From Streptomyces lincolnensis (GTDB taxonomy: Bacteria; Actinomycetota; Actinomycetes; Streptomycetales; Streptomycetaceae): a stretch of 64,000 nt of DNA. The position numbers and the translations under genes were made by a program. The notes beneath the pieces are model-generated. The model made no database searches. It saw only the letters and a list, made by a program, of their open reading frames with translations, and was not told where the DNA came from. The stretch lies in NCBI RefSeq assembly GCF_001685355.1, contig NZ_CP016438.1, positions 4,960,001 through 5,024,000 of the forward strand, read 5' to 3'. Within the stretch, counting starts at the first letter, position 1. Each line of letters starts with the position of its first letter. Shown here piece after piece: positions 48,336-48,439 of the stretch.

Positions 48336-48439
48336 CGGAGGATGCACGAATCGAACGTGCGCGGGCTTTCACACCCGACCTTGGCTGCCTTTGATCAAAC
48401 ACAGTGCAAGCCAGTGCCTTACCACTCGGCCAATCCTCC
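48336..48439 (-). tRNA. atypical tRNA-Ser-like gene with enlarged anticodon loop
   Basis: On the minus strand a 104-nt sequence has a complete 7-bp acceptor (GGAGGAT/ATCCTCC), discriminator G, D arm GGCCGAGTGGTAAGGC, a long variable arm (CGGG..CCCG) and a T arm GCACG-TTCGATT-CGTGC. All fit tRNA-Ser. The anticodon arm does not: TGGCT pairs with AGCCA only if the loop is 22 nt long. Read from the 5' side the loop begins TTGCACT (U33, anticodon GCA) followed by a 17-nt insertion before the 3' stem strand. No encoded CCA and no visible promoter. It may be a pseudogene, an odd tRNA or a tRNA-like small RNA. Confidence 0.6.

Follow-up and report, generated by a model that had tools for sequence, protein, structure and literature searches.

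This locus raises the question of what a serine tRNA gene is for when its body is kept and its anticodon arm has lost the ordinary decoding loop. In the window (the whole 64-kb stretch of Streptomyces DNA analyzed here), a tRNA-Ser-like gene occupies exactly the positions assigned to it by a sequence-only reading that preceded this work, and lies on the minus strand. Its parts are as follows, the anticodon arm belonging to a class that we call C.

48336..48439, minus strand: tRNA-Ser-like gene, 104 nt, CCA not encoded; match over the full Rfam model RF00005, 44.0 bits
48433..48439, minus strand: 5' strand of the acceptor stem, GGAGGAT, pairing with 48337-48343 (from the sequence)
48416..48430, minus strand: D arm GCC-GAGTGGTAA-GGC (from the sequence and the cmscan alignment)
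48381..48414, minus strand: 34-nt anticodon arm, class C (assigned from 232 distinct loci and a stem test)
48389-48405, minus strand: 17-nt loop ACTGTGTTTGATCAAAG within the anticodon arm (read from the sequence)
48361..48380, minus strand: long variable arm of the serine type (from the sequence and the fold)
48344..48360, minus strand: T arm GCACG-TTCGATT-CGTGC (from the sequence; kept in relatives)
48336, minus strand: discriminator G (from the sequence)

The tRNA body is regular. The acceptor stem (seven pairs), D arm, variable arm, T arm (five stem pairs) and discriminator G agree with the Ser-like body that had been proposed, and the cloverleaf body, long variable arm and G73 are all present as in a decoding tRNA-Ser(GCU). 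An Infernal check, suggested by the sequence-only reading, recovered the gene over its full length with the Rfam tRNA model (cmscan; gathering score 29), at a score that compares with 54.7-72.5 bits for the three other tRNAs of the window under the same model. When the whole gene was compared with shuffled sequences, a z score of -2.40 was obtained, and 4 of 200 shuffles folded equally well. ARAGORN, the other program suggested, did not report 48336-48439 in bacterial mode with introns off; with introns allowed, it called a tRNA-Cys (gca) with a 13-nt intron, which comes near the earlier idea of a processed GCA form.

The anticodon arm is where the gene departs from a decoding tRNA, since its 34 nt, against 17 nt in ordinary relatives, do not include a 7-nt loop bearing U33 and GCU. 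An anticodon stem closed over a loop of 22-24 nt had been described; the loop is indeed oversized, but two further pairs, G-C and C-G, close beyond a bulged T (TGGCT-T-GC / GC-AGCCA, read from the sequence), so that 17 nt remain unpaired. A script likewise counted seven pairs in this arm, and the minimum-energy fold of the gene pairs the upper arm somewhat differently. Similarly, the proposed 17-nt insertion is right in length but is not a pure insertion, because in C arms the ordinary U36 has changed and, in 23 of the 37 distinct C arms, C40 has become U as well. A 21-mer core of the insert, with up to three mismatches allowed, matched only itself in the whole genome, which identifies no intragenomic donor of the arm.

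A pattern built from the 25-nt 5' half of the gene (up to two mismatches) matched 156 of 392 sampled Streptomyces genomes, with one copy in each, and the reversed pattern matched a single genome (G186), so the window gene is not a chance pattern. The tRNA pattern was absent from 236 of the 392 genomes. In an order-level sample, 49 of 119 genomes matched, and two weak matches fell outside the genus (74 and 77% identity), one of which (L374) looks by its sequence like an ordinary tRNA-Ser(GCU). The collection scan returned at least 120 named loci. The locus set as used comprises 291 loci, of which 232 are distinct in the tRNA plus 100 nt upstream; L264 (Aureispira), L265 (Actinokineospora) and L275 (Kutzneria) represent different serine tRNA genes and were therefore left out.

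Among the 232 distinct loci, 183 have the 17-nt arm of ordinary alleles (177 assigned by script plus 6 read as ordinary, with some counts using the 177), 37 a C arm, 10 a 9-nt loop and one a 174-nt insert, and one is a remnant (L095) without a 3' end. Beyond these 232 we found two further C arms (L371, L372), a hairpin insert (L370) and an arm with a 5-nt loop (L373). The 174-nt insert (L039, in G222) lies in the anticodon loop, is bounded by an 18-bp inverted repeat identified by eye, resembles a miniature transposable element and gave no Rfam intron match. The hairpin insert of L370 (in G450) sits in the same loop, and its sequence is by eye unrelated to the C arms. Long inserts had also been suspected at 17 loci from split or partial BLAST matches; G222 carries one and the other 16 loci none, the variable arm having broken the BLAST alignment. 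For six Streptomyces, one GCU serine tRNA each is tabulated in PMC4932002, and this single-GCU tabulation may be why the locus went unnoticed. Among the matches listed in the open-licence PubMed Central literature, no paper on such a Streptomyces tRNA was found.

The ordinary allele looks like a normal tRNA-Ser(GCU). The GCT anticodon is present in 180 of 183 ordinary alleles, the loop reads TTGCTAA in 163, and ARAGORN without introns returned Ser(gct) for the same proportion (180/183). The three ordinary-length alleles with another anticodon carry GCC, ACT and ATT, and in all three nt 33 and 37 are pairable (T-G or C-G), compared with 13 of the 180 GCU alleles (Fisher p 0.0006, for a post hoc comparison involving three alleles). 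The other tRNA-Ser(GCU) of the window, at 5930-6021, is not the gene from which the ordinary allele was copied and, its arm being different, is also unlikely as the source of ordinary arms. By eye, the ordinary allele resembles the Pseudonocardiales serine tRNAs at L265 and L275. In addition, a tRNA array on a viral contig includes a tRNA-Ser(GCU) (L337:10357-10442) of 85 nt, 79 of which are identical in the ordinary allele closest to it, a likeness hinting at phage-borne origin or exchange.

The C arm, in turn, is a covarying extended stem structure, as judged from comparison of the distinct arms. When pairs were counted inside nt 27 with one bulge allowed, 33 of the 37 C arms formed an extended stem of 7-9 pairs and 4 failed the test; the mean was 7.51 pairs, against 5.01 when the 3' strands were dealt among the arms, and none of 2000 such permutations reached 7.51. 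The loops of the 33 stem-forming arms measure 12-18 nt, exactly 17 nt in 17 of them. The majority sequence of the 21 C arms of 35 nt is CTGGCTTGCGCTGTGTTCGATCAAAAGCAAGTCAT, with most columns at 76-100% and the weakest at 48%. ARAGORN without introns left 36 of the 37 C alleles uncalled and assigned the remaining one to Leu.

To place both arm types on the host phylogeny, codons were drawn from flanking genes, namely serS, pheA and four that encode ABC transporters. Loci needed at least 500 nt of these genes to be included, which left 149 of the 232 for a maximum-likelihood tree; 75% of its nodes have support of at least 0.8. C arms are scattered over this tree almost at random, hardly better than shuffled labels: C versus the rest requires 26 changes for 32 C tips, compared with a shuffled mean of 29.5, and 11 of 300 shuffles were as low (23 of 500 in a second test), which amounts to a weak tree signal. 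As controls, nt 27 = G (4 changes versus 23.6 shuffled) and a T-stem site (2 versus 37.8) follow the tree. Homoplasy is also seen at single sites, namely T-loop position 60 (24 changes versus 27.6) and nt 28 (28 versus 38.5). A single gain of the C arm would need 46 losses on the tree, and how similar two C arms are shows no correlation with how closely their hosts are related (Mantel r 0.002, a value matched or exceeded in 453 of 999 permutations).

Comparison of near neighbors indicates that the arm replacement is local. Eleven of the 32 C tips have an ordinary tip no more than 0.06 substitutions per site away; in these 11 pairs, the arm differs at 65% of aligned columns, against 1.8% in the 5' half, 3.8% in the remaining tRNA and 6.1% in the 200 nt upstream. 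Conservation does not extend to the 3' flank, where the 100 nt downstream differ at 44%. Together with the scatter over the tree, these near sisters, unlike mainly in the arm, make it appear that arms were replaced or exchanged repeatedly, and a decoding tRNA has apparently been turned many times into a non-decoding tRNA-like RNA.

Throughout these changes the tRNA body has been kept. Acceptor and T-stem pairs are broken in none of 444 cases in the 37 C alleles and in 1 of 2124 in 177 ordinary alleles. The mean pairwise distance of the 5' half is 0.025 in the C alleles and 0.024 in the 177 ordinary ones, and that of the T arm plus acceptor is 0.050 in both, whereas the arm itself reaches 0.304 in C against 0.116 in ordinary alleles. 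The sequence-only reading had argued against simple decay and had named loss of the stems in related genomes as the sign of a dead copy; the stems are conserved, and the unbroken pairs and covarying extended stem bear that argument out. On the other hand, when scaled to flank distance, the divergence of the body from that of the nearest tip is about 2.3 times higher in C (0.275) than in the rest (0.117), and the C alleles may be young, with decay not yet begun.

The surroundings of the gene are defined by three features of the window.

45277..46554, plus strand: serS, seryl-tRNA synthetase (Pfam Seryl_tRNA_N and tRNA-synt_2b; synteny)
48444..48489, minus strand: strong G+C-rich hairpin directly upstream of the tRNA, ending 4 nt before it; also found where the tRNA is absent
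48529..48591, minus strand: 20-codon ORF with a ribosome-binding site, MSMHGSTSSSLQGSPRRAPE, upstream on the tRNA's own strand

A HAD hydrolase gene (Pfam) lies between serS and the tRNA, both protein genes being on the other strand and convergent toward the tRNA. Where at least 2.5 kb of 3' flank is available, serS is present at 85 of 86 loci, convergent in 84 and at a median of 987 nt from the tRNA start. The hairpin at 48444-48489 gave no Rfam match, and in the consensus fold of the leader 3 of 14 predicted pairs were changed on both sides, from which no conserved structure is claimed. The short ORF encodes a serine-rich peptide near MSMHGSTSSSRQGSPRRAPE, stops 89 nt before the tRNA and also occurs in tRNA-less genomes. 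Of 197 tRNA-bearing loci examined, 160 could be assessed and 37 could not; the ORF was found intact at 128 of the 160 and at 16 of 24 tRNA-less loci, under a strict frame test that counts some ORFs starting one codon later as broken. A link between this ORF and the tRNA is therefore not borne out, and the ORF is probably an element of its own. With a cutoff of E <=0.001, matches to the leader DNA, many of them weak, were obtained in 226 of 392 genomes, and 24 inspected loci keep the leader with the full tRNA missing, which, along with the 236 genomes in which the pattern is absent, indicates that the tRNA gene is dispensable. At L344, a decayed remnant of the tRNA 5' half stands behind the hairpin, as if loss were in progress.

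With a probability of about 0.5, we read the window gene as the C form of a second, accessory tRNA-Ser(GCU) gene near serS, disarmed as a decoder, with its body kept for a putative non-decoding role. The main rival, possible but on the whole unlikely, is that C alleles are dead: the extra tRNA would be dispensable, and C arms would be inactivating replacements spread by recombination. Repeated tRNA loss at the 24 loci, the scattered distribution of C, the higher nearest-tip difference of C bodies and the finding of other, unrelated inserts at this position (L039, L370) all speak for it. It has to accommodate, however, covarying extended stems in most C arms, arms that have diverged from one another while their bodies have not, and the complete set of intact stem pairs; for the last of these, each allele would have to be young or repaired by recombination with intact copies. 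A role in which only the body matters is also conceivable, the tRNA marking or processing, through RNase P, the 3' end of an upstream RNA with the small ORF, much as mascRNA does for MALAT1. The conserved ORF, the hairpin abutting the tRNA and a kept body with a free arm would suit such a landmark, but the ORF or the hairpin persists without the tRNA at the 24 inspected loci, and retention of GCU in nearly all ordinary alleles is not something that a landmark requires; we thus regard this explanation as distinctly improbable.

Two further explanations concern the extra segment itself, and both are very improbable. Were it intron-like, its removal would restore a decoding tRNA, a notion encouraged by the presence/absence polymorphism within the anticodon loop, by the splitting of C alleles by ARAGORN when introns are allowed and by the fact that one excision could give GCU in L371, a locus outside the 37. 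Nevertheless, no Rfam intron match was found anywhere in the 64-kb window, where the extra segment is 17 nt, or in L039, and the anticodons that ARAGORN obtained disagree among the C alleles (Arg, Asp, Ile, Ala, Cys and Gly among the matches listed). One contiguous excision leaving a 17-nt arm with four stem pairs could reach GCA in 8 of the 37 C arms, including that of the window, and GCU in none, so no single anticodon is conserved after excision. Processing of the C form into a decoding tRNA is therefore not supported, and neither is the suggestion that a processed GCA form inserts serine at cysteine codons. Alternatively, C arms could be scars of a mobile element that attaches at the anticodon arm. 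Such elements often attach at tRNA genes, and the local nature of the replacement would fit. Against such scars, no second tRNA 3' part was found in the 291 loci (107 of them <1.2 kb), serS is in place at nearly every locus with sufficient flank, searches of phage and plasmid collections gave no match, and the C core pattern had no exact match in viral contigs.

Returning to the disarmed allele that we favor, its history can be sketched as follows. A fixed chromosomal slot near serS holds an accessory tRNA-Ser(GCU) in a large share of Streptomyces, and the arm replacement would have occurred, or been reversed, many times. The C RNA would be transcribed, trimmed by RNase P, supplied with CCA and charged by SerRS, yet be unable to decode. 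In PMC9976931, the anticodon is described as playing no part in serine identity, tRNA-Ser with an altered anticodon as mistranslating, and G30-C40 as a weaker SerRS identity element; charging could thus suffer in those C arms in which U at nt 40 turns G30-C40 into G-U. Since the body would be charged by SerRS whatever its anticodon, a mutant anticodon in a 7-nt loop would lead to serine being misincorporated, and consequently two states would be tolerated: either the loop is a correct GCU one, or the arm is locked shut. Drift through other 7-nt anticodons would thus be unsafe for a serine tRNA released from its decoding duty, whereas locking would be open to it. The disarmed form might serve in a non-decoding role, as a candidate serine donor, or as a decoy for SerRS or a nuclease, and the arm alleles would most likely pass between strains by homologous recombination via the conserved leader and tRNA body.

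More tentatively, and at somewhat less than even odds, we propose that the gene alternates, genus-wide, between two alleles, one decoding and the other disarmed and exchanged horizontally, and that the locked RNA would be a dedicated seryl-RNA outside decoding. If true, close relatives within Streptomyces would form a natural series in which one and the same tRNA either has or lacks its decoding end. Such bacteria grow easily, and what charged tRNAs do away from the ribosome could then be tested in them directly. It would also suggest a route by which a serine tRNA, whose charging is anticodon-independent, could quit translation and yet persist.

Several known systems resemble the C form in part. 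The staphylococcal non-proteogenic tRNA-Gly is charged and used for peptidoglycan, and is not known to be arm-replaced; the likeness lies in a charged tRNA for non-ribosomal use, which the C form is predicted to be, although it has no known partner enzyme. mascRNA of MALAT1 has a tRNA-like body with an odd anticodon arm, is processed by RNase P and is found at the 3' end of MALAT1; unlike the C form, it comes from eukaryotes and serves a long RNA as its 3'-end device. The allo-tRNA and selC* branch has acceptor and T stems of 8/4 or 9/3 pairs. According to PMC7609411, allo-tRNAs and selC* tRNA-Cys share with the C form a long variable arm and a longer anticodon stem, but they have a longer acceptor and act as tRNAs, whereas the window gene has 7/5 pairs and no decoding loop is seen in it. 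The tRNA-Asp-AUC of desert Streptomyces (PMC9262613) is also an accessory Streptomyces tRNA, yet it decodes, which the C form should not. The Bacillus cereus pseudo-tRNA tRNA-Other (PMC3399842) is a tRNA-like gene that has no part in translation and yet affects the cell, as is proposed for the C form; its anticodon is that of Trp and it lies beside a genomic island, whereas at the locus described here the arm is replaced and both forms alternate at one chromosomal position.
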